Source of the DNA: Saccharomycopsis phalli
Lineage: Eukaryota; Ascomycota; Saccharomycetes; Ascoideales; Saccharomycopsidaceae
DNA: 64,000 bases
Reading direction: 5' to 3'
NCBI GenBank assembly: GCA_020342235.1
Contig: CP073215.1
Location: forward strand, 1,612,001 to 1,676,000
Shown here: positions 33,401 to 57,178 of the stretch, piece after piece
How positions within the stretch are numbered: the first letter of the stretch is position 1
How the letters are laid out: each line of letters opens with the position of its first letter
Made by a program: the position numbers and the translations under genes
The notes under the pieces: generated by a model
Database searches by the model: none
What the model saw: the letters and a program-made list of their open reading frames with translations, nothing else
Told to the model about the DNA's origin: nothing

Positions 33401-36400
33401 GCGCTTGAATAATGAGAATTACTTAATTGATGGGTCGAATAATAAAATTGTTGTCAATATTCGAATAATCTCCAGAATTTTGGTATTCACAACTGATATT
33501 ATAGCCGTATATGGCATCAGAAGATCCCTCTTTGAAGCATTTAATATGATATTATTGACATTACTATCACAGAAATCACAGGATCTTCTACAGCCTATCA
33601 TATACAACTATACAATTGGGAAGTTGAAGAATCCTGCCTCGGTAATTCATCGAACTCCGCCTGCTCCTAAACTGATTGATAGAAGCCAGTTGGTGCAGTT
33701 CAAGCACTATTGGTTGCAGAAGGGTGAATTTGAAGTGATTGAGCAACCTAATTATATTATTACTCCTTTTGTCGAAAAGAATTTGTTGAACTTGGTACGT
33801 GCTATTTTAACAAAGCGATTTCCTGTGTTGATTCAAGGCCCCACTTCTTCTGGTAAGACGTCTATGATTAATCACTTAGCGAACATTACGGGCAACAAGG
33901 TCATCAGAATCAATAATCACGAACATACCGATTTACAGGAGTATTTAGGTAGTTATGTTAGTGATAGTGGAAAGTTGGTTTTCAAACATGGTCCTTTGAT
34001 TGAAGCATTGAAGAACGGCTACTGGATTATTTTGGATGAGTTGAATTTGGCAAGTTCTGAAGTCTTGGAAGGTATAAATCGGTTGCTCGATGATAACAGA
34101 GAAATCTTTCTCACTGAGACACAAGAATTGATAAAACCACACAAAAACTTTTTATTGTTTGCCACTCAGAATCCTCCTGGTGCAGTTTATGGAGGGAGAA
34201 AATTCTTGTCTAAGGCTTTCAAAAATAGATTCTTGGAGTTAAACTTTGATGATATTCCTCAGGATGAATTGGAGGTGATTCTATTTAACCGCTGTAAAAT
34301 CCCCCAGAGCTATGCCAAGAAAATCGTTGAAGTATACAAGGAGTTGATTGTTCAAAGATCTTCCAATCGATTGTTTGAGACCAAAAATAGTTTTGCCACG
34401 TTGAGAGATTTATTCCGTTGGGGATCCAGAGAGGCCGTTGGATACGAACAGTTAGCCACAAATGGTTACATGTTGTTAGCGGAAAAGAATAGACGTAACG
34501 AGGAAAAAGATATAATAAAAAGTCTGATTGAGAAGGTTATGAGAGTGACATTAGATGTGGACCTGATTTACGAAGATCGTTTTTCGCTTACGAAGTCTGC
34601 TAATGTGATTTGGACGAAACAAATGAAGAAATTGGCTGTTCTTGTTATTGAGGCATTGAAGTACAACGAGAATATTTTGCTTGTCGGCGAAACCGGAAGT
34701 GGTAAAACCACAATTTGCAGTTACTTGGTTGAAAACTATTATCATAATGAGTTAGTGTTTCTTAATGCTCATCAGAATATTGAAACCAGTGACATTATTG
34801 GGTCTCAGCGTCCTCTACGAAACAGATCTAGACTTCAGGAAGAGTTGAAGCAGCTTAAGATACAGGCCCTTGAAGCTGCTGGAATAGATATTCAAAGCGA
34901 TATTGACGAATTGTATAAGTCACTGAATATTGAAAACTCTGAGATTAACCTGTTGGAGAATAGTTTAAAGTCATTATTTGAGTGGAGTGACGGACCATTG
35001 ATCAAGGCGATGAAGAAGGGGAGTATGTTTTTATTTGATGAAATTTCTCTCGCGGAAGATTCTGTTTTGGAACGCTTGAACTCTGTCTTGGAGCCGGAAA
35101 GAACAATTTACCTTACAGAGTATTCGAATGATATTAGCCAGTCTGTCATTGTGGCCAATGAAAAGTTCCAGTTTCTAGCTACTATGAATCCTGGTGGGGA
35201 TTATGGTAAAAAAGAGTTATCACCTGCGTTGCGAAACCGATTCACTGAAATTTATGTACCGGCTATAAGTGACTTTAATGATATCAGACTTATTGTTCAC
35301 ACTAGATTGCACGATAAGCAATTTACAGACGCTATTATTGATTTCTGTGAGTGGTTCAACAACAAATTCACCATTCAAATATCGATCAGAGATATCTTAG
35401 CCTGGGTTGATTTTCTCAATGTTTCTCCTATTGAGAAATATAGCAGCTTAGTTCATGGTGCTTCTATGGTGTTTATTGACGGACTAGGTACTAACAATAC
35501 GTCGTATCTCAGTTCACAGCAGTTGGCAAGCATTCGCACACAGTGTGTGAGAAAGTTATCAGAGCTTGTGTCTTTTGATTTGCTCCCAATATATTTGCAA
35601 AGTCCTCAAATTGTTGTTGAGAATAGCCTTTTGAATATTGGCATGTTTACCTATCCAATCAATGAAGGTGAACAGGAAATGCGATTTCAGTTGAATGCAC
35701 CAACTACAACGCTAAATGCTATGAGAGTCATTCGTGCTATGAATATCCGTAAACCTATCTTGTTAGAAGGTGATCCTGGTGTGGGCAAGTCAAGTTTGAT
35801 TGATGCATTGGCAAAGGTAACCAACAATAACTTGACAAGAATCAATTTGTCGGATCAAACAGATTTAATTGATTTATTTGGATCGGATTCTCCTATGGAG
35901 GGTGAAAATATTGGAAAATTTGTTTGGAAAGATGCCCCTTTTTTGCGAGCCATGAAACGAGGCGAATGGGTACTTTTGGACGAGATGAATCTTGCTTCGC
36001 CTTCCTTGCTCGAAGCTTTAAACTCAGTTTTTGACTTTAGACAGAAAATTTATATCCCAGAATTGGATCAAGAATTCACCTGCCACAAGGACTTTCGTGT
36101 ATTTGCGGCGCAAAATCCACAGTTTCAAGGTGGCGGGCGTAAAGGTCTTCCAAAGTCATTCATTAACCGATTCACTAATGTGTATATTGGCAAATTGAAC
36201 TCTGAGGACATGGAGTTGATCTGCAGATATTTATACCCTGAAGTGGAGCATAGTTATGTAACCAAGGCTATTACACTTATTAACAGATTAGAACAAGAGG
36301 TCAATGTTAATAAACTGTGGGGATTGACAGGTGGTCCATGGGAATTTAATCTTAGAGACGTGTTGAAGTTTTTGGATATTGGCTTGAAAGGATTCAAACT

Positions 36401-39400
36401 TGTTTTTTTGCAGAAGTTCAGATTGAGGTCAGACAGACAGAAGTTGGAGAAAATATTCCTGGAGATATTTGAGCAAAACCTAAGCAATATCGATACATAT
36501 GACAACCAGGAAACGTTTATTGAAATCAACGGCACAAAATTCGCAAAGAACCAGTTTTTTTCTTTTGATAATAAAATTGAATTGTTGCAATCTAATTTGC
36601 CAATTTTAGAGTCGATTTTAATTTGCATTGAACGGAATTTTCCAATATTGTTAGTGGGGCCTACTTTCGCAGGAAAGTCAGCTGTTGTGCAATTTGCTAG
36701 TGATCTCACTGGTAACAGAACGGAGACAGTTCATATTCACAACGAGATTGATATCAATGATTTATCAGGAGGCTTGGATCAGTATCATTTCAAAAAGGAG
36801 TTGATCCCATTAATGAAGGACTTGCATATTTTGATAACTGAATCAGATAATGCCGACAAGTACAAGGTTTTGGACAGTATCACTCGTTGCCAACATAAAT
36901 TATTAAATGATGAGTTGAACTTGGAGGAGGCTCTAGATATGTTTAAGACATTCAGTGGAATCATTCCTTCCAGCTTCCTTGAAAAATTGCAGACTATTAT
37001 TGATAAGACCACTAACCAACAATTTCAATTCTTTGAAGGAATTCTTATTGATGCGTTGGTTAAAGGCTACTGGTTACATTTATCTAACATCAACTTGATC
37101 AATTCCTCAATCATTGATAGACTAAACTCTATAACTGAGACGAATGGTGTATTTGTCGTGAGTGAAACCAATTCATTAGATGGTCAACCTCGAGTCATTA
37201 AACCACACAAGAATTTTAGATTGTTTCTATCGATGGATCCTAAGTATGGAGAGTTATCTCGGGCAATGAGAAATAGATGTAGTGAGATCTATATTGAGGA
37301 GATACATGAGCGGGCTACATTCTATGATCGATTACTTATAAGTGACTCAAAAATAGACTTTTACAATTCTTTTATCAGCAGCAAGGACTATCAGAATAAG
37401 TATTTGTCAACAATTTTTGATATTATGAACCATAATAATATTCAAAGAATTGTCGAGTCTTTGGTTAGCTTTATTCCATTTAGTCGATACGGCGTTGTTA
37501 TGAAGTTTGCACAAGCTTTTTCAAAGTATAATTATAAGCTATTTGAATTAGTCAAGTTCATGGAATATATTCAAAAGTTAGCCGGTACTTCAACTACGTC
37601 ATTGCTTGATAGTTGGAAGCACTCTGAATTGCCCCCACTGGCACTTATATTCTCATATTACGAGTTACTTAAGGTGTTTTCTGAGACTAAATTGAATGTG
37701 CGTATTTCAAATATTATCAATGAAGTTATTGATTTCATTAGAGAGAATTTTGCCAACACAGAAGTGCTCCTTAAAATCACGGATTTGCTGATTCAATTGA
37801 CTAGCATCGACAAACCAGAGCAATCTAATTTTGTTATCAAGGAAATCCAGAATATAATCAGAGATAACTTTAATGGTGATTTGAAGTATTTAAATTCCTT
37901 TGAAATTAAAAACTCAGTTACCATGACAAAGATTTGGTATGATTTTTCGTTTAGCTCTAATTCCATCAAACATTTATTGAACATCATTCCTGCTGAATGG
38001 AAGGAGTACATTGAAGTGGAGTCTGTCAACGGAAATATATTGGATGTGGTTTTTGACCTTGAAAAATTCAATGCGGCTTCCAAAGAGCGATTGTTCGAGA
38101 AGGAGAATTTGAAGTTGTTGAATATTATCAACATTAGAAACAGCTTAGACCCCACTTTTCAAATTGATGAGAACTATCTAAAGTTATTGATTGATAGTGG
38201 CATTCAACGAATTTCTCTTGTTAACTACTACATTGGGAAGTTAACTGTTCCATATCCTTTAGTATTGAACAATATTTACTGCGAAAAACATATCTCCAGC
38301 GAATACTTTATTGCGGAGCTTGAAAAGAAGATAGATACTATTGATAATATCGAGATTTCCTCAATCAGTCAGGCATTTGAGGATATGAAGCTGTTGACTC
38401 GCACCATGATTAATAATTCCCAAGTACTTATCAAGGACCAATATGAAATGTTGAGTGAGATATTGGCCCATTGGATTGAGAAAGTGGGTATTGAGTCAGG
38501 ATATCTAAGCTTGGTCCTGAAAGAGCTTGCTCAATTTAGATCAGAAAAGCTTCTCGAGAAATTGGGTAAGGCATTTGTATATTTCAGTTTGGGATTGTTC
38601 GAGTTGTTCGTGCCCAACATTCCTTATGATCCAGCTATCAGCGAATATTTAATTTTCCAACTATATGAGATGCAAAGAAGCAATTTGAGCAACACAAAAT
38701 CAAGTATTGAAGCAGTCAGAAAGATATTTGTTGGCGATTATCCAGTCAACTACGAGTTACTGCTTGAGAATTATCATATCGAGAAGATGGACAAACCAAG
38801 AATCATCCGTACTAATGAGTCTTTCAGTGAGGTGTTTGATGAATGGAGAGCCTTTTTACTGTCTATTAATGAATCCTATGTGAATGATTTGTTAGATTCA
38901 CAAGAGTTAATTGATAGTAATATCAATAATTTGTTTAGGAATTCTGAAAGATTTCTTCTTAACTTGAGCCAATTTTCAACTTTCAACGATTTAAATAATG
39001 TTTTCAAAGGTGGGGTATTAAGTCTTAACTTTGGGTTTAATTTGATCCAAATATCCCACCTTGAACCGCTGATTCCTGATAATTTGTGGGACTTTAACTT
39101 CAGTAGTTTGAATTCTGCGTTTTTAGGGTACTCTTTTTACTATGTTAAAGGATTAAATAATAGTCAAATGTTTGAAAAGTTGCATGAATTGTTTTCTCTT
39201 AGTTATAAAAGTTGGAAGGCTGCAACTAGCAAGAGAGAGTTGGAAGAACAAAGATCTGAGAATTTATTCAAGTACAAGGGTGAAGAAGAAGCAGAAGAAG
39301 AGTCTGATGAAGTTATCGAGTCGTTGTTCAATGTATCGGAGGACTCTGAGACTTTAATCGAAGTATTTATTAATATGTTCAGCTCTCTTCCGAACGAGAA

Positions 39401-42400
39401 ACTTTTTGGTACCGACTTCACTCGTACTGTTAATAAGATTTTTGCTAATGTCAGCTCGATTGAAAGTACTAAAAATGAATTTTTTTTCAAGCCAAATTAT
39501 TATGAAATCAATAAATTCTTGGCTTTGCTTCAAGAGATTGGTGCCGAGTTGTTGACTTATGATATTCAGGAAAATGCGATAATTAACAACTTAATGGGGT
39601 TGATTACTGAAGTAGAGGGAATGGCTTACAATAACACGTTAAACAAGATGATCGCAAAATTGGAGCAGTTGTTGACTATTATGGATGAGTTAATGAAGTA
39701 TTCCAATGAAAATATTAACAAGAATAAGTTTAAGGAGTTTATTAATAAAACTAACAACTTGATTATCAGTTGGAGAAAGTTGGAGTTGAATAACTACAGT
39801 AAATTAATTGCAAATGAAGATAAGCTATTGATGAATAAGTTGAATGATCAGATTTATTATTTGTTTGAGTTACTCATATTGGGATTCAGTGATAACAATG
39901 CCGAGGAAATATGTTCTTTACTTGGTATCTATCTCAGTGATAGTAACAAAGGAGACTTTGAGCTTAAATTGAAATTGATTGAGAGTTTTAATAAATACAT
40001 CGAGTTAGGTTGGCCAGATTACTCTCTGTTGATTAAAAATGTTGTTAGCTACTATCGATTATTTTTGCCTATAATAGACAAACAATTAGATGGTATCAAG
40101 AAGTTGTTGAGCAAGGAAATTGGTGAAATTATCTTACTTAGTAGCTGGAAAGACGTCAACATCAATTCTCTTAGACAATCGTCAATGAAGTCAAAGAGAA
40201 ATTTATTCAAGGTCATCAAAAAGTATCGACAAGAGATTAACTTGCCTATCAAAAATATTATTGAGACTGGGTTGCCGTTCGTTGCTCAATCTGAGTATAG
40301 TGAAGACATGTGCTTGATTGATACTAAGTCCGTGCCTTGCCCAGTTCCACAGGACAAGAGTCAGCCGAATGTTGTTTTTAAGTTGGATATTGTTACAAAG
40401 AAGCTTGGAAAGGATCGCTCTGCAATCATGGAAGAGGAATTCATGAATCTCTATAGCTACAGTCAATCTTTGGAAGATCAGATGACGAAACTAAAGAATG
40501 ATACTCCAAAGAAATGGAGCGAAGAGAATAAGAAATTGATTAACGGTTTAAAAACAGAGAAGAGAAACTTGCTTAGCAGAGTTATTAAAGATATGAAGCA
40601 TTATGGGTTGAAAACTAATTCCTTGGACAAGTATAAATTGTCAGGCATTAATTTGTTAAGTACTAGTTGTGAATTGTATGACGAGTCCTGGTATAGAATT
40701 ATTGACTTGTTGCCGAGATTGAGAAATGCTGCTAGCAATTGCCATCCAGACCTTCCTAAGGATGATATACTTAAGGGGTTGGCTATCATTGAATATTTGA
40801 TTTTTACTGCATATTCACAGAGAAGCCATTTGAATGGGTTAAAAATCAATAGAGAGAAGATTGAAAACTGCTTGAAGACGTTACAGAGTGCATGCCAAGA
40901 CGGCTGTCATGATGTAAGTCTATTAGACCGACAGAAAGCTATCCATTGGCTTATTACATTATTGCCATCGGTTATAGAATATGGTGTCACAACTATTGGA
41001 AATGCCATAGAGTTGGGTCGGTTATCAGGGGACCATGTCAAGGCTAAAGAAGTATTGCTTAAGTACAAATTTGACTTTAATTTTTCAAATGACATCATTA
41101 CCACTTCTTGCAAAGCAAAGCTATTTGATGAGATTGATTCAAATGTTGGCTCGTTTAAACAGGAGGTAGAGCAGTTGGTTACTGAATTTCCTAAGTTGGA
41201 GTTTGTTCTCAATATGATCCTAGTTTGGATAAGAGATAATTATAACTCTCATAAGGTGGTTCCATTGGAGGATGATGGCTTATCAGATATTCAATTTGAG
41301 ATAGTGAAATCCATATTGGTCTCTGTTCAGGAGATAAAGAAAGCCAGTGACATAGCACAAGAGACTGATAGTGATGAACGTGCATTTGTTATTGGACAGC
41401 AGAAATTGACTCAGTATAAGAATGGATTATATTGTGAGGAAATTAATGAAAAATTAGAAAGCTTAATTGAGAAAATATCCAAGAATAAAGTCAATCAATC
41501 TATTTTGAATTATATTGTGCCTTTGGTTGAAGAATATCATAATTACGCCACTATCATCGGTTCGAAGTTTGAAGAGAACCACTATAATTTGACCAAGTCT
41601 ATCTATCTATTGAGCAGCTCGCTTTTGAAGTTGTCGGAGAATGGATTTTGCACGCCCGAAAATACTCCAGAGGAGTCTTCCGAGGAAGGATCTGGTGGTG
41701 GTATTGGTGATGGCGAGACTGGTGATGGAGATACAAATGAAATTGATGAAGAAGATATCGATGAAGACGGATTGACCAATAATCCTGACAATGAACAGAA
41801 GGAAAAGGATGCAGATGAAGAAGATAAGGCCACTGAGATTGAAGGTGATATGGAGGGTAAGAATGAGGACATGGAAGGTCAGGATGATGATGGCGATGGA
41901 GAAGATTTAGATGATGAAATTGATGATTTAGATGACTTGGATCCGAATGCTGTTGACGAGAAGATGTGGGATGAAGAAATCAATGAAGAGACAAAGGAAA
42001 AGGATAGTGACAAGACTGAGGGCAAAGAGACAGACGAAATGACAGCTGAAGATGGCGATGATAGTAGGGAGAATGATAGCAAAGATAAGAATGACGGCCA
42101 GGAGGCTGATGAGGCTGACGATAGAGAAGAACTGGATGGGGCAGAGGAAGAAGAAGATGATGTTGGCATGCAAGAAGATGAAGTTGTGCAAGATGAAAAT
42201 AATGAGCAGGTTGATGAGCAAGTCAATCAAGAGGAGGCTCTTGAAATTGCGGATGACTTAAATTTAGATAATGAGGAAGATGATAACCAGGGTGAACAGG
42301 AGACAGAAGACTTTGATGACAAAATGGACATAGATAATGAAGTTAACGAGGAAAATAACGAGGAAGAAAGAAATGCAGATAATCAGGAGGCAGACAATGG

Positions 42401-44171
42401 TGAAGTAGAGGAAGAAGAAAAAGATGATGAAGAAGCTCAACAGGAAGAGGAAGAAAATGCTGGTGAAAAGGGAGAAGAAGGAGAAAATAAAGATGATGAG
42501 GAGGAAGATATTGATAAGTTAAAGGATGATTTGGATGAAGACGGATTAGATGACAATATGAAGGATGATACTCAGGTTGGTGAAGGGAATGAGGAGCAAC
42601 TAGAATCAGTGATGGATGAAGTTATGGAAGAAAATCAGGATGCTCTTGATAATGAGACTTCCACAAAACAAACTAGTGGAGAGCAAACAGAAGGTATGGA
42701 TCAAGAGAATGAAGAGTCTGCCGATAATGGAACATCAGGTGATGTTCAGCAAAAACAACAGGACTCAAGTGAGAATATGGATCAAGAGAAGAATGAGATG
42801 AAAGATAAGATAAAGCAGTTAGGTGACTCTTTGAAGGAGTTCTACAAGCGTTCAGAAGAGATTTTAGATTCTAATTCGAATGAAGAAGAAGAAAAGGACG
42901 AAACTGCTGGTGAGAATCCAGATCAATTTGAACACATGGATAAAGATGATAAGGAAGAGAATCCTCAACAGGCATTGGGAAATGCCACACAAGACCAAAT
43001 CCAGAAATTAGATGAAGACTTGGAAATTGAGGATGATGAAGAGGAGACCATGAAGCCATTAGACGAAAGCGAAGCTGTTACTGAGACTGAAGGTTTAAAT
43101 AATCCAGATGGAATTCAAGGAGAAGGAGAGGAAAATGAGGAACAAGATGAGGAAATGGATGATGATGAAATGATGCAAGAAATGCCAGAAACCATTACTG
43201 ATTTGAAGATAGATAACTCAGAAGAGTTGGATGAGGAACTGGAGGTTGATCAGCTGGTCATCCAGAACTTCTCAAACTTAAATACGGACGATAATCTGTT
43301 GATTCCTCTTGATGTCGCCAGTAAAACTTGGGAGGAAGCAGAGCTTGCTACGAATGAACTTTCGATAATGTTGTGCGAGCAGTTAAGACTCATTTTATCA
43401 CCTACCATTGCTACGAAGTTGAAGGGTGATTATAAGTCTGGTAAGAGACTAAATCTTAAAAAGATTATCAGTTACATTGCGTCTGATTTCAAGAAAGACA
43501 AGATCTGGTTGAAGCGTACGAAGCCTGCTAAACGAGCATATCAAGTCATGATAGCCATTGACAACTCAAAATCTATGGCAGAAAACCCACAAACAGTCAA
43601 GCTTACTTACAATACACTTTGCTTAGTGACCAAGGCATTAACTCAGTTAGAGGCAGGTGACATTTCTGTTGTGCGATTTGGAAATGATACTTCCATTGTT
43701 CACAGTTTCAACCAACCATTTAGCGCCAAATCAGATGGACCTAAATGCTTTCAATGGTTTGGTTTTGACGATACATTTACCAACTTGAAGGACCTTATTG
43801 TGAATTCTATTGAAATTTTTAATGATAATCATGCTCCTAACCCTGGAAGTGATTTATACAAGTTAGAAATTGTCATCAGTGACGGTATCTGTGAAAATCA
43901 TGATGAGATTTCCCGGCTAGTGAGAAAGGCCAAAGAAGATAACATTTTAATTGTTTTTGTCATCTTGGATGGAATCACAAAGAACAAAGAATCCATTGTG
44001 CAGATGGATCAAGTCAGTTATCCGGAAGATGCCAATGGCAACGTTGTCATGAGAATCGACAAGTATTTGGATACTTTTCCTTTTGACAATTACATTATTG
44101 TTAACAACATCAACCAGATGCCTGAGATGATCTGCCAAATCTTGAGAACTTTCTTCATGAATAGTGTATAA
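30495..44171 (+). CDS. MDN1: Midasin, dynein-like AAA ATPase of 60S ribosome assembly
   Basis: 4558 residues in one exon (S. cerevisiae 4910). Six AAA+ modules follow an N-terminal domain; Walker A motifs lie at residues ~318 (GGNGSGKS), 673 (GETGCGKT), 1115 (GPTSSGKT), 1398 (GETGSGKT), 1759 (GDPGVGKS) and 2055 (GPTFAGKS). A ~1600-residue helical linker precedes a very acidic D/E-rich region (~3720-4260) and a C-terminal MIDAS/VWA domain with DNSKS at 4356-4360. Midasin uses its MIDAS domain to pull assembly factors Ytm1 and Rsa4 off pre-60S particles. PAC/RRPE promoter elements agree with this role. Divergent from NPL4 with 127 bases between ATGs. Confidence 0.98.
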   Translation: MPENIPVENNIIIDRAEVSKRLEQFCGKWALGDGAKLQLPDYEDSTNEFFNQLAIGCLNPKLTELIVYCYEEIYFEIAIRLISDSALESQFQKMHGIEEPFTGVYTMYSLAKAASIFNRGKCVRFNVVVEKFIEDKLFWSLDLNQDQTKLVLISYLRLLNNDVNLFKRHVKLEALDTIINLERSTAVNKKLAIDILAKILGYSVEKKNAMLRGVENLEDWYEDMEDFKYEYFEIFEAKRISDHLSLPRNTIESGEKLCFSQDDFLANVRVIYGVLIPTFDFSEERKSLSSFVNIRSSVKTIHDLSKKILVGDPIILYGGNGSGKSLIINHLHNLISTDSTNLVKIHLNSQTDIKLLLGTYVSSHEPGKFVWKDGVLTTAVKKGKWLIIEDINNANNEILSIFIGIIESRQLVLNNSEVIPINSGFQIIGTINIDDSNSYKHIFNGENENFSFWKDRIFNTEPSLTDFQLPSLISINKYVSVFHQQPTPSELLQVLQHISQLNESIWEKLVGLFIYIRYKIFVQKSFISLNNGLSLKVVDNFDLVRLAHRIKLLDIHNDLDQIFFETIDIFTLSLQNDRIKKYLIKKIGNFLEIGTSKIELMIDHLHLYSPELSTSGYSIDIGRNHFKGNDINKNFQLNSVKQLNNFALTSHSLRLLEQLSISLKLVEPVLLLGETGCGKTTIVQNLAKICQKKLIVLNLSQETESNDLIGGYKPILNRYQTLLIPVQNTFLDLFGKTFNLIKNERFVKLVNNEFKKEQFNKVFKLWYKAIEMAKSYLSKDTQVADSKGENVKRRKLLDKNLLSINWANFEDMVKESQVQYQRYNTSSLQFDFIEGPLIRAVKNGDWILLDEINLASPETLENISDLLNQQDRKILLTEKANENNEIETIVANREFRIFGCMNPSTDIGKKNLPRNIRSKFNEIFVDSPDKNKNDLKIIIQKYLHNYLTNDEATNNEVFDDISDLYYEIKRLNNENYLIDGSNNKIVVNIRIISRILVFTTDIIAVYGIRRSLFEAFNMILLTLLSQKSQDLLQPIIYNYTIGKLKNPASVIHRTPPAPKLIDRSQLVQFKHYWLQKGEFEVIEQPNYIITPFVEKNLLNLVRAILTKRFPVLIQGPTSSGKTSMINHLANITGNKVIRINNHEHTDLQEYLGSYVSDSGKLVFKHGPLIEALKNGYWIILDELNLASSEVLEGINRLLDDNREIFLTETQELIKPHKNFLLFATQNPPGAVYGGRKFLSKAFKNRFLELNFDDIPQDELEVILFNRCKIPQSYAKKIVEVYKELIVQRSSNRLFETKNSFATLRDLFRWGSREAVGYEQLATNGYMLLAEKNRRNEEKDIIKSLIEKVMRVTLDVDLIYEDRFSLTKSANVIWTKQMKKLAVLVIEALKYNENILLVGETGSGKTTICSYLVENYYHNELVFLNAHQNIETSDIIGSQRPLRNRSRLQEELKQLKIQALEAAGIDIQSDIDELYKSLNIENSEINLLENSLKSLFEWSDGPLIKAMKKGSMFLFDEISLAEDSVLERLNSVLEPERTIYLTEYSNDISQSVIVANEKFQFLATMNPGGDYGKKELSPALRNRFTEIYVPAISDFNDIRLIVHTRLHDKQFTDAIIDFCEWFNNKFTIQISIRDILAWVDFLNVSPIEKYSSLVHGASMVFIDGLGTNNTSYLSSQQLASIRTQCVRKLSELVSFDLLPIYLQSPQIVVENSLLNIGMFTYPINEGEQEMRFQLNAPTTTLNAMRVIRAMNIRKPILLEGDPGVGKSSLIDALAKVTNNNLTRINLSDQTDLIDLFGSDSPMEGENIGKFVWKDAPFLRAMKRGEWVLLDEMNLASPSLLEALNSVFDFRQKIYIPELDQEFTCHKDFRVFAAQNPQFQGGGRKGLPKSFINRFTNVYIGKLNSEDMELICRYLYPEVEHSYVTKAITLINRLEQEVNVNKLWGLTGGPWEFNLRDVLKFLDIGLKGFKLVFLQKFRLRSDRQKLEKIFLEIFEQNLSNIDTYDNQETFIEINGTKFAKNQFFSFDNKIELLQSNLPILESILICIERNFPILLVGPTFAGKSAVVQFASDLTGNRTETVHIHNEIDINDLSGGLDQYHFKKELIPLMKDLHILITESDNADKYKVLDSITRCQHKLLNDELNLEEALDMFKTFSGIIPSSFLEKLQTIIDKTTNQQFQFFEGILIDALVKGYWLHLSNINLINSSIIDRLNSITETNGVFVVSETNSLDGQPRVIKPHKNFRLFLSMDPKYGELSRAMRNRCSEIYIEEIHERATFYDRLLISDSKIDFYNSFISSKDYQNKYLSTIFDIMNHNNIQRIVESLVSFIPFSRYGVVMKFAQAFSKYNYKLFELVKFMEYIQKLAGTSTTSLLDSWKHSELPPLALIFSYYELLKVFSETKLNVRISNIINEVIDFIRENFANTEVLLKITDLLIQLTSIDKPEQSNFVIKEIQNIIRDNFNGDLKYLNSFEIKNSVTMTKIWYDFSFSSNSIKHLLNIIPAEWKEYIEVESVNGNILDVVFDLEKFNAASKERLFEKENLKLLNIINIRNSLDPTFQIDENYLKLLIDSGIQRISLVNYYIGKLTVPYPLVLNNIYCEKHISSEYFIAELEKKIDTIDNIEISSISQAFEDMKLLTRTMINNSQVLIKDQYEMLSEILAHWIEKVGIESGYLSLVLKELAQFRSEKLLEKLGKAFVYFSLGLFELFVPNIPYDPAISEYLIFQLYEMQRSNLSNTKSSIEAVRKIFVGDYPVNYELLLENYHIEKMDKPRIIRTNESFSEVFDEWRAFLLSINESYVNDLLDSQELIDSNINNLFRNSERFLLNLSQFSTFNDLNNVFKGGVLSLNFGFNLIQISHLEPLIPDNLWDFNFSSLNSAFLGYSFYYVKGLNNSQMFEKLHELFSLSYKSWKAATSKRELEEQRSENLFKYKGEEEAEEESDEVIESLFNVSEDSETLIEVFINMFSSLPNEKLFGTDFTRTVNKIFANVSSIESTKNEFFFKPNYYEINKFLALLQEIGAELLTYDIQENAIINNLMGLITEVEGMAYNNTLNKMIAKLEQLLTIMDELMKYSNENINKNKFKEFINKTNNLIISWRKLELNNYSKLIANEDKLLMNKLNDQIYYLFELLILGFSDNNAEEICSLLGIYLSDSNKGDFELKLKLIESFNKYIELGWPDYSLLIKNVVSYYRLFLPIIDKQLDGIKKLLSKEIGEIILLSSWKDVNINSLRQSSMKSKRNLFKVIKKYRQEINLPIKNIIETGLPFVAQSEYSEDMCLIDTKSVPCPVPQDKSQPNVVFKLDIVTKKLGKDRSAIMEEEFMNLYSYSQSLEDQMTKLKNDTPKKWSEENKKLINGLKTEKRNLLSRVIKDMKHYGLKTNSLDKYKLSGINLLSTSCELYDESWYRIIDLLPRLRNAASNCHPDLPKDDILKGLAIIEYLIFTAYSQRSHLNGLKINREKIENCLKTLQSACQDGCHDVSLLDRQKAIHWLITLLPSVIEYGVTTIGNAIELGRLSGDHVKAKEVLLKYKFDFNFSNDIITTSCKAKLFDEIDSNVGSFKQEVEQLVTEFPKLEFVLNMILVWIRDNYNSHKVVPLEDDGLSDIQFEIVKSILVSVQEIKKASDIAQETDSDERAFVIGQQKLTQYKNGLYCEEINEKLESLIEKISKNKVNQSILNYIVPLVEEYHNYATIIGSKFEENHYNLTKSIYLLSSSLLKLSENGFCTPENTPEESSEEGSGGGIGDGETGDGDTNEIDEEDIDEDGLTNNPDNEQKEKDADEEDKATEIEGDMEGKNEDMEGQDDDGDGEDLDDEIDDLDDLDPNAVDEKMWDEEINEETKEKDSDKTEGKETDEMTAEDGDDSRENDSKDKNDGQEADEADDREELDGAEEEEDDVGMQEDEVVQDENNEQVDEQVNQEEALEIADDLNLDNEEDDNQGEQETEDFDDKMDIDNEVNEENNEEERNADNQEADNGEVEEEEKDDEEAQQEEEENAGEKGEEGENKDDEEEDIDKLKDDLDEDGLDDNMKDDTQVGEGNEEQLESVMDEVMEENQDALDNETSTKQTSGEQTEGMDQENEESADNGTSGDVQQKQQDSSENMDQEKNEMKDKIKQLGDSLKEFYKRSEEILDSNSNEEEEKDETAGENPDQFEHMDKDDKEENPQQALGNATQDQIQKLDEDLEIEDDEEETMKPLDESEAVTETEGLNNPDGIQGEGEENEEQDEEMDDDEMMQEMPETITDLKIDNSEELDEELEVDQLVIQNFSNLNTDDNLLIPLDVASKTWEEAELATNELSIMLCEQLRLILSPTIATKLKGDYKSGKRLNLKKIISYIASDFKKDKIWLKRTKPAKRAYQVMIAIDNSKSMAENPQTVKLTYNTLCLVTKALTQLEAGDISVVRFGNDTSIVHSFNQPFSAKSDGPKCFQWFGFDDTFTNLKDLIVNSIEIFNDNHAPNPGSDLYKLEIVISDGICENHDEISRLVRKAKEDNILIVFVILDGITKNKESIVQMDQVSYPEDANGNVVMRIDKYLDTFPFDNYIIVNNINQMPEMICQILRTFFMNSV

Positions 44172-49072: not shown

Positions 49073-52000
49073 ATGGATCCTCACCATACGAGGGAAGCCG
49101 TTAAAGAATTCAATTTGATTCTAAGGGGGCTATGCTCCAAGGGGGAGGAGGAGCGACTACGCCATGCTTTGGCTTTGAAGAACATTCTATTCAATGGTGG
49201 GACTTCGATCGAAACCAATCGGTCACTATCGGAGTCATTTGTCTACAATAGCTTACATGAGATAACCGTGAGCAAGAATGAGAAAAAGAAAATAGAGGTA
49301 TACTATGCCATCAAGGAGTTTATCCAGCTAGTCGGAGGCCCGGAAATGGAGACTTCCAGAATTGCTCGATTGTTGGATTCCTTGATGAATATCCGGTCAA
49401 TAACAAGAGATGTGGCCAATACTCTCGGATCCCTCTACAAGCCTGGATGGTCTTTAGTAGCGACGTATTTCAGCTTCACCTGTGGGAATGCCATCGAAAA
49501 CTTGGGCTCTAAGATCGAAAGCAAGAGACTCAATTCATTGTTATTGTTGGAGTCATTGGCCCGTCATAACCCAGGGGCTTCCTACCCATACATTGAAACG
49601 ATATTTGGCGGACTATACCAAACTTTGAAGGATAGCTCCTTGGCGATTCGTGAAGACTCTTACAAGTTGTTGTATACCTGTCTCCAGATATTATACGAGC
49701 GAGACCAGTACATTCAGTTGCCTAGATTTAACGCACTTTATGACGAAGCTATTGCAAACTTGAAGAGCTCTTCCAGCGACTCTATCCATTCGGCGTTCTT
49801 GATATTTAAAGCATTACTTCACATTACCATTTTGTCCAACCAAAACAGGTCACTAGCCTCGATGGATTCCAACGACCACAAGAATGCCATCAGCTTCGCC
49901 AGCCTCACAGACAAGGTCGACGATATGTTCAACAAGTGCTGGTTGTTTAACGATTACAAGTCTTCAACTGTGCGAATCGAAATCGTCGAGGTATTGCCGT
50001 TGATTGCTAAATTTAACCCGAGAATATTTACACTTCGCTACCTTCTGAATATCCGCGACTTCTACATGGCGCGCTTGCGCAAAGATAAAGACAGAGTTGC
50101 GGCATTGTATTTGTTTGGTAGCATTTCAAAGGAAGTGGGCCCAAACAATTGTTTGCTGTATGCCAAGAACTTGATTTCGGTTATTGAATACTTGATTTAT
50201 TCTCTAGATAATGGGGAGACTGAGACAGGTGGTAGTAGCACATCTGGCCAAACAATCGGGACTGAACGAGTGCAGTCGCAGATCGAGTATTTACATGGCT
50301 TGGAACAAGCCAACTCCTCGTTAAACAATACAAACGGTCATAGTCGGGATGATGACAGCAAGTTAACCGACACGGTGATAGTAGTTACTGAGTGCAAGCG
50401 GTTGAAGCGGTTTGAACTCGAGAGAGCAATGTTTTATGCGATTATGAAGATTTGCGAAACCTTGGGCCCTAAGATAATACAAGTGTTGACCGTGAATTTG
50501 ATTGACTTGGTCATCACAAAGTGTATAATTACAAAGCCTTTTGAGGCCTTGATGAAAGTTTTAATCAAAGAGTACCCTAACTTGGAGGTTTTCATCTTAC
50601 AGAAGTTGTTGAACAAAATATCCTTGTGCTTAGGTGGCTGCGAGTACATTGAGCCAGGTGTGTCTATTACCAGCTTAAATTTGTCTTCAAGAGATAAGAA
50701 GAAGTTGAAGGAGCGCTCTGTAATCGGAATCCATTTTGACGAGTCAAATGGAAGAGTTTTCTTAGACAAGAGCACCAAGTCGGTTAAAAACAGCAATGGC
50801 AACGCAAGTGAAGGTAGAATATTGGAACTAAGAAGAATGGTGAATTTGTATAAGCAGCCATACAACGTTGCTAGCGCCCCATTATCAAATTATAACTACA
50901 AGGACTTGTCTTCCAATTTCAATAATTTCACAGCAATGCATGAAGCTCATTCGCTATCCAACCATACCAAAGCAGGTGGTGGAATTTCCAGGGATGATGA
51001 AGGAAGTCATTTTATCACTATTAAAGATTTGGTAGATTTGAGAAAGGCCAGCAGTTATAGAGAATCGATATTAAAAGATTATGGATTTTTAGCACAACAG
51101 TCCAGCTCTTTTAATAGTGCGATTAATAGTATTTCCTTGAAAGTCAGTGCGATTTCAGATGAATATTTTAGCAGTATTATTGGTGATTCTGAAAAATCTG
51201 AAGAGAACGATAACCTTGAATTCCAAGCTACTCAAATGTTGGTGGAATGTTTTAGCATTTTGGGTAGATTTAACTTCACTGGTAACTTTTCATTATTCGA
51301 ATTTGCAAGATATGTCACATTGTCATACATAGACAACGAAAATCCAAAAATCAGAAAAATTGCAGCAATAACCAGTGAACAGTTGTTTTCCAAGGATGAA
51401 ATCATGGGCACTATTCAAATAGGTTCCATAACGGCAGTTTCTGAGGTATTGTCCAAGTTGTTGTTAATAGGGATTACTGACCCGATCTCTGATTTGCGAT
51501 TGGATATCTTAAAAAGTTTAAGTTCCAAGTTTGACCCTCAATTAGCACAATCAGATAATGTCCGTTTGCTTTTAATGTCATTAAATGACGAAAGTTTTGA
51601 CGTCCGAAAAGTCAGTATTCGGATACTTGGGCGTATTTCCAACAAGAACCCGGCATATGTGATCCCTGCATTACGGAAAATTTTGATACAATATCTCAAT
51701 GACTTAAAGTACGGAACCGTCAACAGCAGTAGGGAAAGCAGCTGCTCATTGCTCTCCACATTAATTTCTTGTGCTACAATGTTGACAAAGCCTCATGTTG
51801 ATGCTATTGTGGAAGTGTTGATGCCATTAATAGCCGACAATAACAACTCGGCTATTTGCTCAATTGCCGTGAGGTGTCTTGGTGAATTGGCTCGGGTTAG
51901 CGGTGAGACTACCAAGGAGTTTTTGGATAAGGTAATCCCCTTGATATTAGAGATTTTAATGGCCAATTCATTGTCAATTTCAAGTAAGGAGAAGGTGATA

Positions 52001-55000
52001 GCTGTGAGAACATTATGTCAGTTGATCCGAAGTTCTGGCAATGTTATTGAGCCCTTGTTTCAATACCCGGACTTGTTACATATAATCACAAATTTTGTCA
52101 GTGTGAGCAACCCAGATTCAAACTTAAAACGTGAAACAATTAAGTTACAAGGTATTTTAGGAGCCTTGGATCCATATAAGGTTCGGGTGATTGAAAGTAA
52201 CTACAAATCAATTCGACAGAATAGAACCAAGAATCTGTTGGCTTTATTGGAGCAGAAAAAGAAGATCGAAAAGTTAAAAGAAGAAGAAGAATTGGATATC
52301 AGCAACTATTGTGACAATGCCAAGTTCTGGGGACATCAAGAGGCAGGTAAGGACTTTGATACTGCTGTCGACTTGAATGAGTTTTTATCGATCACTGATG
52401 CCAGCTCCAGAATTCCTAAGTTGATCCAATTGGAGACACCAGTAGATTTGTTATTGCTTATGCAATTGAATGTGGAGTTGAGACCTTCTGCGGTTAATGA
52501 GGATTACTACTTAATAGTGGTTCTTGTAACTTTGATCAAGGTATTGAAGGACCTGAATGCAAACTCGCATCACGAAACTGTCATGACAATTATTGTGGAG
52601 ATCTTTGCTAGAACAAGAGACAAGTGCTTGCCCTTTACTAAGCATGTTCTTTCGGGAATGATTCGCGCGATGAAAAACTATACTGCCTCTAAAGTAAAGC
52701 AGGTTTTCCAGCAGATCAGATCTATTGTCCAGTATGTGGATAAGTATATCCGTGCATCTGTGCCTGTGATTTTAGAAAGTGTTATTCAGCACTTTGACTC
52801 GACGGATAAGACTACTTTGATTGACTTGGTAAGTGTCATCGCGAAGAATTTGGAATCTGAATTTAAAGTGTACTTACCAACACTCTTGTCTTTGTTTCTT
52901 CGCGCTATGAATAGTGACACTACCCGTGACGCTTCAATTGCCAAGCAAATCATCCGTGCATTCTTGGCATTTGGGGTTTCTATTGAGGAATATGCAAATT
53001 TGATTGTCACTAACATTTTGGGTTTTACGGAACAAGGGCCTTTTGAACTTCGGCGTATTGCTATTGAGTCCATTGGGAAGTTCACGACGGTTATTAATCT
53101 AAATGATTTGGCTTCAAGAATTATTCATGGGTTTTTAAGAGTATTACAGAGTAAGAATGCGGAGAATGTTCAACTAAGAGAAGTAATTATGAACTCTTTG
53201 TGCGCATTGATTGTACAGTTGAAGTCAGAATACTTTATATTCTTACCATTGGTTGACAGTGTGTTGACGGAAAATAGGATTGTTTCGCCTTCTTACACAA
53301 AGATTGTCCACCAGTTGATCAAGAATGAAAATGTGTCCTTCACATTACCTGCAGAGTACGAGCCAGATCCAGGTGACAGAAGGGACGTAACCATGCGACC
53401 TTTGAAAGCAAAAGAGTTGCAAAGCGCCTGGCAGCCATACCATTGTAAAAATAAGGGTGATTGGATAGAGTGGTTGAAAAAGTTCAACTTACTGCTTTTG
53501 GAATACTCTCCGTCTATTGCCTTGAATTGTTGTTTAGTGTTGGCATATGCGCATGCTCCAGTTGCAAGGGAATTATTCAATACTGCGTTTGTGTGTTGCT
53601 GGTTGGCGTTGAGTGATGAGCTCAAGGCCGATTTATCAAAGTGTGTTTATTTTGTGTTGAATAGCTCTCCGCGGTCTTCTGATGCATTGCAGGCGGTATT
53701 AAATTTGTGTGAATTTATGGAACATAACAATACTCGTTTGCTGATTGGGATTTCTGTGTTGTCCAGATACTCGTTTAGACATCATGCGTATGCCAAGGCT
53801 CTCCACTACAAGGAATTAGAATTTAAGGAAAGCGTCATACAGTCAAACGTTTCAGAGGCTACTGTTGACTCTTTGATAAAATTTAATAACTCTCTTCAAC
53901 AGTCCGATGCTGGAATTGGTATGTTGAAGGTGGCTACCGATACCTACAAATTCACGCCTAAAGAGTCATGGTATCAGAAGTTACAAAGATGGAAAGAGGC
54001 CTTGGGAATATATGAAATGAAGATCGAGGCAGGTCAAACAGACTTGGATGTTATTAATGGGAAAATGAGCTGTTTGCATGCTTTAGGCCAATGGGAGCAG
54101 TTGGAAAAGTATGCAGAGTCTACATGGAACCAGATGTCCAACACCAATAAGGAAAAAGTGGCGCCACTAGCAGCAGCAGCGGCTTGGGGAACTAGCAAGT
54201 GGAGCCGTATGGACGATTATATCAACGTTATGAAGGAAGATTCTGCTAATAAGTATTTCTTTGAGTCTATCTTGAGCGTCCATAGATGTAACTATGGATC
54301 CGCAAAACAGAATATCAAAAATGCCAGAGAATTGCTCAGTGGTGAAATCAGTTCGTTGATTAACGAAAGTTACAGTAGAGCATATGACGTGGTTGTGCGG
54401 ATTCAGATGTTGTCTGATATTGAAGAGATTATAGAGTACAAGCAATTGGATGGAAACTCTCCTCGAAGAGCACATTTGCGAGCCGCCTGGGATAAGAGAT
54501 TGTTCAACTGTCAGGGGAATGTGGATATCTGGCAGCGATTGCTTAATATTAGATCGTTGGTTATCGCACCAGAAGAGGACTTGGAGGCAAGAATCAAGTT
54601 TGCAAATCTTTGCCGAAAGTCTGGAAGAATAGCACTTGCTGAAAAGACCTTGTCAAGCTTAAAGCGCAATGTGATCCAGCTTCTTCCTGCTCCAGGAAAT
54701 GGTAACAAAGGGGGTTCGTTCACCAGTCCTGCATTGGTATATGCCCAGTTGAAGCTATTGTGGAATATCAACCAAAAGGAAAAGGCATTCAACACAATTT
54801 GTACGTTTACGTATGATTTAAGTGCCAGTCTTTGTCTTAGAGGAGATAGTTTGCCTACTCCCGAGTTACCAGACGTTTTGCCGTGCGACATGGATTTGTA
54901 TCTAAGGTTACGAAAGATCTTGTGCAAGTGTTTTTTGAAACAGGGACAATGGCACATGCAGTTAAATCCTGACTGGTCGTTGGACAAGGAACAAGCCGAA

Positions 55001-57178
55001 GGAGCAGTGTTGGGATCGTTTTTGATTCCTACGATTTTGCACGACGAATGGTACAAGGGATGGCATTACTGGGCATTGGCTAACTTTGAAGTTGTCAAAC
55101 GGAAGTCTCGAAGAATGAGAGGTGGCAATGAGGAAATAAAGGAAGAAGAGGAGCAGGACGAGGAGGCAAATATACAAGCCGAGAGCGAGTTAATCAAATT
55201 GCATGTCAACCCAGCGATCAAGGGTTTTTTCAGGGCCATTCAGTTATCCAATACAATTGCATTGCAGGATTTGTTGCGATTATTGGATATCTGGTTCCAT
55301 TTTGGCGGATTTCCGGAAGCAGCCTTGAGCATTGACCAGGGGATCAACCAGTTAAGTCTTGAGACGTGGTTGCAGGTACTACCTCAGTTGTTATCGCGAT
55401 TACATCACGAGAACCCTACTATCAACGCGTCATTGCAGAAACTTATTGTCAGATTGGCTGAGTTGCATCCGCAGGCGTTGCTATTCCCATTAAACGTGTC
55501 TGTTCGGTCCGATAAGAAAGCAGGACAGAGCGTGGCCAAGGTGATTTTGAATAATGTGAAGCTTCTCCATGCAGAGTTGGTTAATGAGGCCGACATTATT
55601 GTGACCCAGTTGGTGAAAGTTGCGATGTTGATCAATGAGCAGTGGTACCAAAGGATTGAGGAGGCAGTGACTGTGTTCCAGAGCGGGTACCATTACGAGA
55701 AAATGATTGACATGTTGGATGAGGTGTACAATGCGCCACGTACGACGTTCTTTGAAAAGGCCTTTTGGGCTACGTGGTGCAACGATCTCACAGAGGGACA
55801 CCAGTGGTTAGTTAAATACAAGGTGAAGTTGCAGGAGACGGGCAAACGGGACACTTCGTTGTTGCAGCTGGCGTTTGATACTTTTGCGCCGATTCACAAC
55901 AGGCTTGCTTCGGAGTTTTCGCTGATGAAGAGCCACGACCTTGAGTATATTGCCCCGGTGCTATTGCAGTGTCATGATCTACAGTTGGCCATGCCGGGTA
56001 CTTATGAGCCACGGAAGGCAATTATTCGGATCTCGGGTTTTGAGAGCCATGTTCCGGTGATCACATCGAAACAGCGACCTCGGCGGATCTTCATCAAGGG
56101 CCATGATGGACGGTTGTACGACTATGCCTTGAAGAGTCAGGAGGATATTCGGCAAGATAACATGGTGATGCAGTTGTTTGGGTTGGTCAACCGGCTTTTG
56201 GCGAACGATCCCGAGTGTTCTAACCGTCATTTGAATCTCCAGCCGTATCCACCAGTTCCATTGTCGCCTAGATCCGGTTTACTCGGCTGGGTTCCAAACA
56301 GTGACACGTTCCACCAGTTGATCTCCCAGAACCGGTCGTTCAAAGGTACTACCCGCGATATTGAGCGGAGGGCGCACAGTCAGTTTACGTCGAAACACTT
56401 TGAGTATAGTACGTTTTTAAGAAAGGTCGAGACCTTTTTGTTGACCTTGACCGCTTCGCGAGGTATGGACATATACGAGGTGCTTTGGTTAAAGAGTCGG
56501 TCATCTGAGGTTTGGCTCGAGCGAAGAGCGACCTATGTGCGATCATTAGCCCTGATGTCCATGGTGGGATACATTCTTGGCTTGGGTGACAGACATCCGT
56601 CGAATATCATGATCAACCGGGTTACAGGGAAGGTCATTCATATTGATTTCGGTGACTGTTTTGAGGCGGCGTCGCTCCGTGAGAAATGGCCAGAGAAGGT
56701 TCCATTCAGACTCACGAGAATGTTGGTCAATGGGTTAGAAGCCAGTGGCATTGAAGGCTCATATCGAATCACGCTCGACCATGTGGTGCGAGTTTTGCGT
56801 TCCAACAGCGAGTCTTTACTCGCCTTGTTTGACTCGTTTGCCTATGACCCATTGATTAACTGGGGATTTGATATCCCAACCAAGGCGGTGGTGAGGGCCA
56901 CGGGCTACAAACCGCCTGACCCACATCCTGGAGAGTTGCTTGCAAAGGGCCAGATTGATGAGGCGGAATATGAGAAATTGGCTGCCAAGGAGAAGCGGGA
57001 TGAGCACGAGGCACGAGCGCAGTATGTGCTACGAAGAATTGACGACAAGCTAAAGGGCAATGACTTTGCAAAGTTGAAGAATTTGTCGATTGACAAGCAG
57101 ATTGACAAGTTGATTGACCAGGCGACCAACAACGAGAACTTGGCGCTACATTTTATTGGATGGTGCCCATTCTGGTAG
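49073..57178 (+). CDS. TOR protein kinase with divergent FRB domain
   Basis: 2701 residues, ~230 more than S. cerevisiae Tor1/2. The order is canonical: HEAT repeats (~1-1400, with SEVLSKLLLIGITDP and LSSKFDPQLAQSDN), FAT domain (~1450-2080, NLCRKSGRIALAEKTL), FRB (~2173-2280), PIKK kinase with EDIRQDNMVMQLFGLVN, GLGDRHPSN (Asp2506) and HIDFGDCFEAA (Asp2525), and the FATC end FIGWCPFW. All catalytic motifs are intact. The FRB is not canonical: the serine that rapamycin-FKBP12 needs is Val2199, the following Phe is Gln2203, and the pocket Trp is Phe2268. The LST8-binding segment (~56350-56475) has also drifted. It is either a second TOR paralogue or the only, unusual TOR. Confidence 0.95.
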   Translation: MDPHHTREAVKEFNLILRGLCSKGEEERLRHALALKNILFNGGTSIETNRSLSESFVYNSLHEITVSKNEKKKIEVYYAIKEFIQLVGGPEMETSRIARLLDSLMNIRSITRDVANTLGSLYKPGWSLVATYFSFTCGNAIENLGSKIESKRLNSLLLLESLARHNPGASYPYIETIFGGLYQTLKDSSLAIREDSYKLLYTCLQILYERDQYIQLPRFNALYDEAIANLKSSSSDSIHSAFLIFKALLHITILSNQNRSLASMDSNDHKNAISFASLTDKVDDMFNKCWLFNDYKSSTVRIEIVEVLPLIAKFNPRIFTLRYLLNIRDFYMARLRKDKDRVAALYLFGSISKEVGPNNCLLYAKNLISVIEYLIYSLDNGETETGGSSTSGQTIGTERVQSQIEYLHGLEQANSSLNNTNGHSRDDDSKLTDTVIVVTECKRLKRFELERAMFYAIMKICETLGPKIIQVLTVNLIDLVITKCIITKPFEALMKVLIKEYPNLEVFILQKLLNKISLCLGGCEYIEPGVSITSLNLSSRDKKKLKERSVIGIHFDESNGRVFLDKSTKSVKNSNGNASEGRILELRRMVNLYKQPYNVASAPLSNYNYKDLSSNFNNFTAMHEAHSLSNHTKAGGGISRDDEGSHFITIKDLVDLRKASSYRESILKDYGFLAQQSSSFNSAINSISLKVSAISDEYFSSIIGDSEKSEENDNLEFQATQMLVECFSILGRFNFTGNFSLFEFARYVTLSYIDNENPKIRKIAAITSEQLFSKDEIMGTIQIGSITAVSEVLSKLLLIGITDPISDLRLDILKSLSSKFDPQLAQSDNVRLLLMSLNDESFDVRKVSIRILGRISNKNPAYVIPALRKILIQYLNDLKYGTVNSSRESSCSLLSTLISCATMLTKPHVDAIVEVLMPLIADNNNSAICSIAVRCLGELARVSGETTKEFLDKVIPLILEILMANSLSISSKEKVIAVRTLCQLIRSSGNVIEPLFQYPDLLHIITNFVSVSNPDSNLKRETIKLQGILGALDPYKVRVIESNYKSIRQNRTKNLLALLEQKKKIEKLKEEEELDISNYCDNAKFWGHQEAGKDFDTAVDLNEFLSITDASSRIPKLIQLETPVDLLLLMQLNVELRPSAVNEDYYLIVVLVTLIKVLKDLNANSHHETVMTIIVEIFARTRDKCLPFTKHVLSGMIRAMKNYTASKVKQVFQQIRSIVQYVDKYIRASVPVILESVIQHFDSTDKTTLIDLVSVIAKNLESEFKVYLPTLLSLFLRAMNSDTTRDASIAKQIIRAFLAFGVSIEEYANLIVTNILGFTEQGPFELRRIAIESIGKFTTVINLNDLASRIIHGFLRVLQSKNAENVQLREVIMNSLCALIVQLKSEYFIFLPLVDSVLTENRIVSPSYTKIVHQLIKNENVSFTLPAEYEPDPGDRRDVTMRPLKAKELQSAWQPYHCKNKGDWIEWLKKFNLLLLEYSPSIALNCCLVLAYAHAPVARELFNTAFVCCWLALSDELKADLSKCVYFVLNSSPRSSDALQAVLNLCEFMEHNNTRLLIGISVLSRYSFRHHAYAKALHYKELEFKESVIQSNVSEATVDSLIKFNNSLQQSDAGIGMLKVATDTYKFTPKESWYQKLQRWKEALGIYEMKIEAGQTDLDVINGKMSCLHALGQWEQLEKYAESTWNQMSNTNKEKVAPLAAAAAWGTSKWSRMDDYINVMKEDSANKYFFESILSVHRCNYGSAKQNIKNARELLSGEISSLINESYSRAYDVVVRIQMLSDIEEIIEYKQLDGNSPRRAHLRAAWDKRLFNCQGNVDIWQRLLNIRSLVIAPEEDLEARIKFANLCRKSGRIALAEKTLSSLKRNVIQLLPAPGNGNKGGSFTSPALVYAQLKLLWNINQKEKAFNTICTFTYDLSASLCLRGDSLPTPELPDVLPCDMDLYLRLRKILCKCFLKQGQWHMQLNPDWSLDKEQAEGAVLGSFLIPTILHDEWYKGWHYWALANFEVVKRKSRRMRGGNEEIKEEEEQDEEANIQAESELIKLHVNPAIKGFFRAIQLSNTIALQDLLRLLDIWFHFGGFPEAALSIDQGINQLSLETWLQVLPQLLSRLHHENPTINASLQKLIVRLAELHPQALLFPLNVSVRSDKKAGQSVAKVILNNVKLLHAELVNEADIIVTQLVKVAMLINEQWYQRIEEAVTVFQSGYHYEKMIDMLDEVYNAPRTTFFEKAFWATWCNDLTEGHQWLVKYKVKLQETGKRDTSLLQLAFDTFAPIHNRLASEFSLMKSHDLEYIAPVLLQCHDLQLAMPGTYEPRKAIIRISGFESHVPVITSKQRPRRIFIKGHDGRLYDYALKSQEDIRQDNMVMQLFGLVNRLLANDPECSNRHLNLQPYPPVPLSPRSGLLGWVPNSDTFHQLISQNRSFKGTTRDIERRAHSQFTSKHFEYSTFLRKVETFLLTLTASRGMDIYEVLWLKSRSSEVWLERRATYVRSLALMSMVGYILGLGDRHPSNIMINRVTGKVIHIDFGDCFEAASLREKWPEKVPFRLTRMLVNGLEASGIEGSYRITLDHVVRVLRSNSESLLALFDSFAYDPLINWGFDIPTKAVVRATGYKPPDPHPGELLAKGQIDEAEYEKLAAKEKRDEHEARAQYVLRRIDDKLKGNDFAKLKNLSIDKQIDKLIDQATNNENLALHFIGWCPFW

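Follow-up and report, generated by a model that had tools for sequence, protein, structure and literature searches.

The TOR kinase of the yeast Saccharomycopsis phalli is encoded in the window analysed here, a stretch of 64,000 nucleotides (contig CP073215.1 of assembly GCA_020342235.1, positions 1,612,001 to 1,676,000 of the forward strand), and none of the six published ligand-contact residues is kept in its FRB domain, the domain that elsewhere binds FKBP12–rapamycin. The interpretation that we regard as likely is that this protein is the only TOR of the species, that its FRB groove has been rebuilt, rendering the kinase probably insensitive to rapamycin, and that the groove has been changed or abandoned as a docking place. 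Judged by alignment, the FRB is the focus of the divergence, and the kinase core is intact. TOR and the FRB are themselves known, and it is the apparent rebuilding of the groove that is unusual against the comparators at hand.

Contact residues and divergence of the FRB

The S. phalli protein was aligned with TOR of three comparators, namely Tor2 of a yeast that we take to be Kluyveromyces marxianus (PDB 5fvm), S. cerevisiae Tor2 (6emk), and human TOR; residues identical in all three are termed invariant. In S. cerevisiae Tor2 (the numbering used for the published contacts), mutation of Ser1975, Trp2041, or Phe2048 causes rapamycin resistance, and Leu1971, Phe1979, and Tyr2045 are phosphatidic-acid contacts (Shertz 2010, PMC2997006). 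Passages of that paper report all six contacts as conserved across the fungi compared, for which a figure legend names eight species (PMC2997006). In S. phalli, 0/6 are kept: Ser1975 is replaced by Val2199, Trp2041 by Phe2268, and Phe2048 by His2275 at the resistance positions, and Leu1971 by Ile2195 (a conservative change), Phe1979 by Gln2203, and Tyr2045 by Ala2272 at the phosphatidic-acid positions, so that all six differ from those of both yeast Tor2 proteins. At nine rapamycin-contact positions that we take to be 2031, 2035, 2038, 2039, 2098, 2101, 2102, 2105, and 2108 in human numbering, S. phalli is identical to human TOR at 1/9 (Asp2102) and to S. cerevisiae at 2/9; S. cerevisiae and human TOR agree at 7/9.

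The EEAV motif begins at residue 2196 and AFDTF at residue 2267, and the contact codons are GTG (Val2199), CAG (Gln2203), TTT (Phe2268), GCG (Ala2272), and CAC (His2275). The initial annotation had placed the FRB at 55590..55920, which corresponds to the domain delimited in Table 1, and had described the rapamycin-contact residues as lost; the five residues that it named are those just listed, and alignment and codons agree with it to the number. Its statement that loss of the Ser or Trp gives rapamycin resistance in yeast has its precedent in the published mutations of Ser1975, Trp2041, and Phe2048 (PMC2997006). The three altered positions are common to S. phalli and to the laboratory resistant mutants of S. 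cerevisiae described in passages of that paper, but in S. phalli the changes are natural, all three occur together, and the rest of the domain is widely changed.

The FRB_dom profile (PF08771, curated cut-off 24.7 bits), which also matches the human mTOR FRB, gives the S. phalli domain 46 bits in the whole protein and 51.5 bits in isolation, compared with 155.1, 148.8, and 156.2 bits for the matched segments of K. marxianus, S. cerevisiae, and human TOR. Invariant residues were counted over residues 1690–2701, with the N-terminal HEAT repeats left out. The FRB keeps 18/55 of them versus 304/424 in the remainder of this region (Fisher p = 2.7e-8), including 101/132 in FAT and 16/23 in FATC, which fits the earlier description of TOR-like FAT, kinase, and FATC regions around a divergent FRB. 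Among windows spanning 55 invariant columns, the five with the lowest counts listed all lie on the FRB (17–18/55 kept), and the lowest non-overlapping window keeps 28/55. Pairwise identity gives a similar picture: the S. phalli FRB is identical to that of S. cerevisiae Tor2 at 28/102 positions and to that of K. marxianus Tor2 at 27/102, compared with 63/105 between human and S. cerevisiae, and in the kinase segment 2421–2598 the corresponding values are 113/177, 114/177, and 131/177. Identity of S. phalli to S. cerevisiae is 165/363 in FAT and 82/136 in the linker and N-lobe (2285–2420). In the MAFFT alignment, the loop preceding the last FRB helix exceeds that of each of the three comparators by six residues, and an earlier FRB loop is three residues shorter.

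Two reviews describe the FRB as a second docking site for substrates, where amphipathic helices of S6K1 and PRAS40 bind, and as the face for Kog1 packing in the TOROIDs of glucose starvation; the tail of Rictor/Avo3 (in S. cerevisiae, the Avo3 C-terminus) covers it in TORC2, and FKBP12–rapamycin blocks the docking place (PMC7464330, PMC6325617). By profile, the S. phalli domain is still an FRB, and the groove that holds FKBP12–rapamycin elsewhere, and substrate helices in mammalian TORC1, appears to be rebuilt, with Val replacing the conserved Ser and with Phe, Ala, His, and Gln replacing the aromatic contacts Trp, Tyr, and Phe and a second Phe. The most likely consequence is that FKBP12–rapamycin would be unable to dock on this TOR despite a normal-looking FKBP12. 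The kinase is probably rapamycin-insensitive because published single-residue mutants at the same positions are resistant (PMC2997006). Endogenous docking on the FRB may use the changed groove or may be carried mainly by Raptor/Kog1, and we infer that docking of substrates, Kog1, or Avo3 on this domain is altered.

The groove contacts are unchanged in the fungi of Shertz 2010 and shared with human TOR, which suggests a physiological role other than binding the drug. With a single TOR, an intact FKBP12, and a groove that appears rebuilt, S. phalli would be a natural experiment on what the groove serves: substrate choice, TOROID formation, or Avo3 masking. In the lineage of S. phalli, an effect of rapamycin should not be taken for granted as a readout of TOR activity; S. 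schoenii, of the same lineage, is discussed for biocontrol (PMC13148404). Within the library consulted, and going by titles and abstract openings, neither TOR nor rapamycin is the subject of any paper on Saccharomycopsis; both terms are absent from three papers on the genus, and rapamycin is absent from PMC8468998. No species with a naturally altered FRB was recognised in the literature, going mostly by titles and by passages of PMC2997006 and PMC5745459. A paper on indole-acetic acid, considered with regard to a natural FRB ligand, was set aside, as its one FRB passage concerns rapamycin.

TOR copy number, FKBP12, and binding partners

A profile search of the 14.15 Mb genome gave one FRB_dom match, covering profile positions 2–97 of 99 in one frame. 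The TOR protein matched itself and six weaker places in the genome at 25–37% identity, every one starting at query residue 2289 at least. These weaker matches cover the kinase, one reaching FATC, and none touches the FRB, as expected if they represent other PIKKs and lipid kinases. With one FRB match and one TOR, a second TOR is excluded within the assembly. The initial annotation had left the choice between a second TOR and a remodelled only TOR, and it is the remodelled only TOR that stands. This TOR would presumably function in TORC1 as well as in TORC2.

The FKBP12 gene (L019 736–1110, minus strand) begins with a short exon followed by a probable intron of 39 bases (GTACGT...GCTAAC...TTAG), which explains an in-frame stop upstream of the main exon. 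The open reading frame caller puts the start of this gene at a wrong TTG. The spliced protein aligns without gaps (177.6 bits) with PDB 1yat, which we take to be S. cerevisiae FKBP12. Loss of FKBP12 was rejected as a cause, as the gene looks intact.

The Raptor N-terminal family (Raptor_N) and Rictor/Avo3 are both present in the genome. A truncated Avo3 was considered as a change of partner and rejected, because the C-terminal region still aligns, weakly, with Tsc11 1293–1421 (26.3 bits, E 5.3e-5). An AGC kinase at C5:790737, presumably Sch9-like by its motif, has the hydrophobic motif FNGFTYVD followed by the tail PGNPNLPPDENVID; no Sch9 is among the best 60 of the 162 matches of its C-terminus. 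Relatives were sought by pattern in genome contigs (11 stretches) and viral contigs (4), and none was confirmed.

Alternative explanations

Several observations weigh against a groove specifically rebuilt in the only TOR. Divergence extends beyond the FRB: segment 2087–2160, immediately before it, keeps 20/36 invariant residues and the kinase segment 88/128, and 28/179 windows of 100 columns are more than 20 points less similar to S. cerevisiae than human TOR is, the last of them starting in the kinase at 2416. The comparators are three TOR proteins, two of them mutually close and none from the same order, and the eight fungi in the figure of PMC2997006 include none in Ascoideales. The support for the FRB fold is the profile match; a single-sequence AlphaFold model, with no relatives in the input, has a pLDDT of 42.9 and a pTM of 0.28, too low for the model to be of use. 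The Sch9-like kinase keeps its hydrophobic motif, and therefore gives no independent sign of changed substrate docking.

Relaxed constraint, in which FRB docking has become dispensable because Kog1 alone delivers substrates and the surface has drifted with no new function, is a tenable account, although its chances fall short of even. The changes run across the whole domain, including non-contact positions, as the count of invariant residues indicates (18/55 kept), two FRB loops are altered in length, and mammalian substrates also dock on Raptor via the TOS motif, according to a passage of PMC7464330. On the other hand, a domain that had merely drifted would sit less easily with the near-full length, the preserved frame, and the clear profile match (51.5 bits).

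A rewiring of the FRB into a different docking module in this lineage of predator yeasts is doubtful. The groove common to human TOR and the compared fungi would have given way to a new one that alters the substrates or partners engaged by TOR (amphipathic-helix substrates, Kog1 in TOROIDs induced by starvation, or the Avo3 tail); the change would be tied to starvation-triggered predation, with rapamycin insensitivity as a by-product.

Selection by antibiotics is unlikely. According to this account, S. phalli or its ancestors were exposed to rapamycin-type macrolides of actinomycetes, and later changes gathered around a first resistance change. The eL42 protein (C7:502534–502761; L020 1501–1728) has Gln in its GGQTKQIF segment, at what we take to be the position of Pro56 in cycloheximide-sensitive S. 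cerevisiae. Together with the growth of the species with 0.1% cycloheximide, stated in a passage of PMC8468998, this apparently reflects resistance, at the target site, to a further product of Streptomyces. A single change would suffice for resistance to rapamycin, yet 37/55 invariant residues are changed, and loss of FKBP12 would be simpler, yet FKBP12 is intact. Moreover, Gln56 of eL42 is common among yeasts.

That the gene in the window is a TORC2-type paralogue of a further TOR whose FRB is canonical is highly improbable: S. cerevisiae and S. pombe each have two TORs (passages of PMC2997006), but the 14.15 Mb contain a single FRB match, none of the six weaker TOR matches (25–37% identity) extends into the FRB, and the assembly consists of 8 contigs with a depth given as 600x. 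Least probable is an artefact of sequencing, assembly, or alignment, which would account for FRB letters far from the comparators when those of the kinase are not, but conflicts with a frame open over 2701 codons, with an FRB profile matched at 2–97 of 99 in one frame, and with a long-read assembly that had short-read correction and a depth given as 600x (PMC8468998).

Gene architecture, assembly, and genetic code

The S. phalli protein has the TOR-type order of mTOR_dom, FAT, FRB, PI3/4-kinase, and FATC domains, all above the Pfam cut-offs (Table 1). Its catalytic and metal-binding motifs align with those of Tor2 and mTOR, and domain order, kinase motifs, and FATC are shared with Tor2 of K. 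marxianus and S. cerevisiae. Among the best 60 of 156 PDB matches, the Tor2 structures 5fvm and 6emk rank highest (1801.9 and 1770.4 bits), full-length mTOR structures score about 1250–1280 bits, and the first other PIKK is SMG1 at 187 bits.

Table 1. Features of the S. phalli TOR gene; positions are those of the window.
Feature	Window position	Strand	Residues	Basis or remark
Complete TOR kinase gene	49073..57178	+	2701 amino acids	Single open frame without internal stop (code 12)
mTOR_dom			991-1222	Pfam, above cut-off
FAT domain	54161..55285	+	1697-2071	Pfam and alignment
FRB domain, apparently remodelled	55601..55924	+	2177-2284	Pfam FRB_dom match at residues 2180-2278
First contact helix of FRB, IEEAVTVFQ	55655..55681	+	2195-2203	Alignment
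Loop preceding last FRB helix	55817..55870	+	about 2249-2266	MAFFT alignment
Last contact helix of FRB, AFDTFAPIH	55871..55897	+	2267-2275	Alignment
Kinase domain with GLGDRHPSN and HIDFGDCFE	56117..56863	+	2349-2597	Pfam and alignment
FATC domain	57080..57175	+	2670-2701	Pfam and alignment

Within the FRB or at its boundary, the CTG codons encode Ser2266 and Ser2284, neither of which is a contact position. Since no contact codon is CTG, the genetic code leaves the residue assignments unaffected, and a change of code was rejected as a cause. A CTG at kinase residue 2494, where the three comparators have Val, fits Leu as well as Ser. A search for the C. albicans-type tRNA-Ser(CAG) pattern gave no match. 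Three near-identical tRNA genes (L012 1446–1536, L013 1490–1580, and L014 1446–1536) have a long variable arm and probably contain an intron; they carry G at the discriminator position, and their anticodon is ambiguous, read as CAG by hand versus tRNA-Thr(tgt) by ARAGORN with introns allowed. Only 2 bases separate the L014 copy from a tRNA-Leu(taa). CUG is read as Ser here because published proteomics of the sister species S. schoenii confirm this decoding in Saccharomycopsis (PMC6508603). The initial annotation had referred to the CUG-Ser clade; the term fits the code (PMC6508603), but Saccharomycopsis belongs to the order Ascoideales, separate from the lineage of Candida albicans (a passage of PMC13148404).

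The assembly comprises 14,148,124 bases in 8 contigs. Passages of PMC8468998 describe an assembly of S. phalluae, presumably the same species as S. phalli, with 8 contigs, 14,148,124 bp, an N90 of 1,540,684 bp, and 43.55% G+C, made from long reads with short-read correction and with a depth given as 600x; the species is the agent of a yellow rot in a cultivated mushroom and groups with S. fodiens, which is described as predacious. ATP-sulfurylase (PF01747) has no match anywhere in the genome. Sulfate-assimilation genes are reported missing from S. schoenii, S. fodiens, and S. fermentans (a passage of PMC6508603), and the missing match is as expected for the organic-sulfur auxotrophy of Saccharomycopsis.

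The TOR protein contains a long insertion at residues about 553–724 (window about 50729–51244); in the K. marxianus Tor2 chain, the matches flanking it are just 16 residues apart. Upstream of TOR lies a Midasin-like AAA+ gene (window 30495–44171, 4558 amino acids), whose Pfam scores when read under both codes gave no clear answer on the code. Across the window, G+C is lowest (0.354) in the bin 32001–40000, in the region of this gene.

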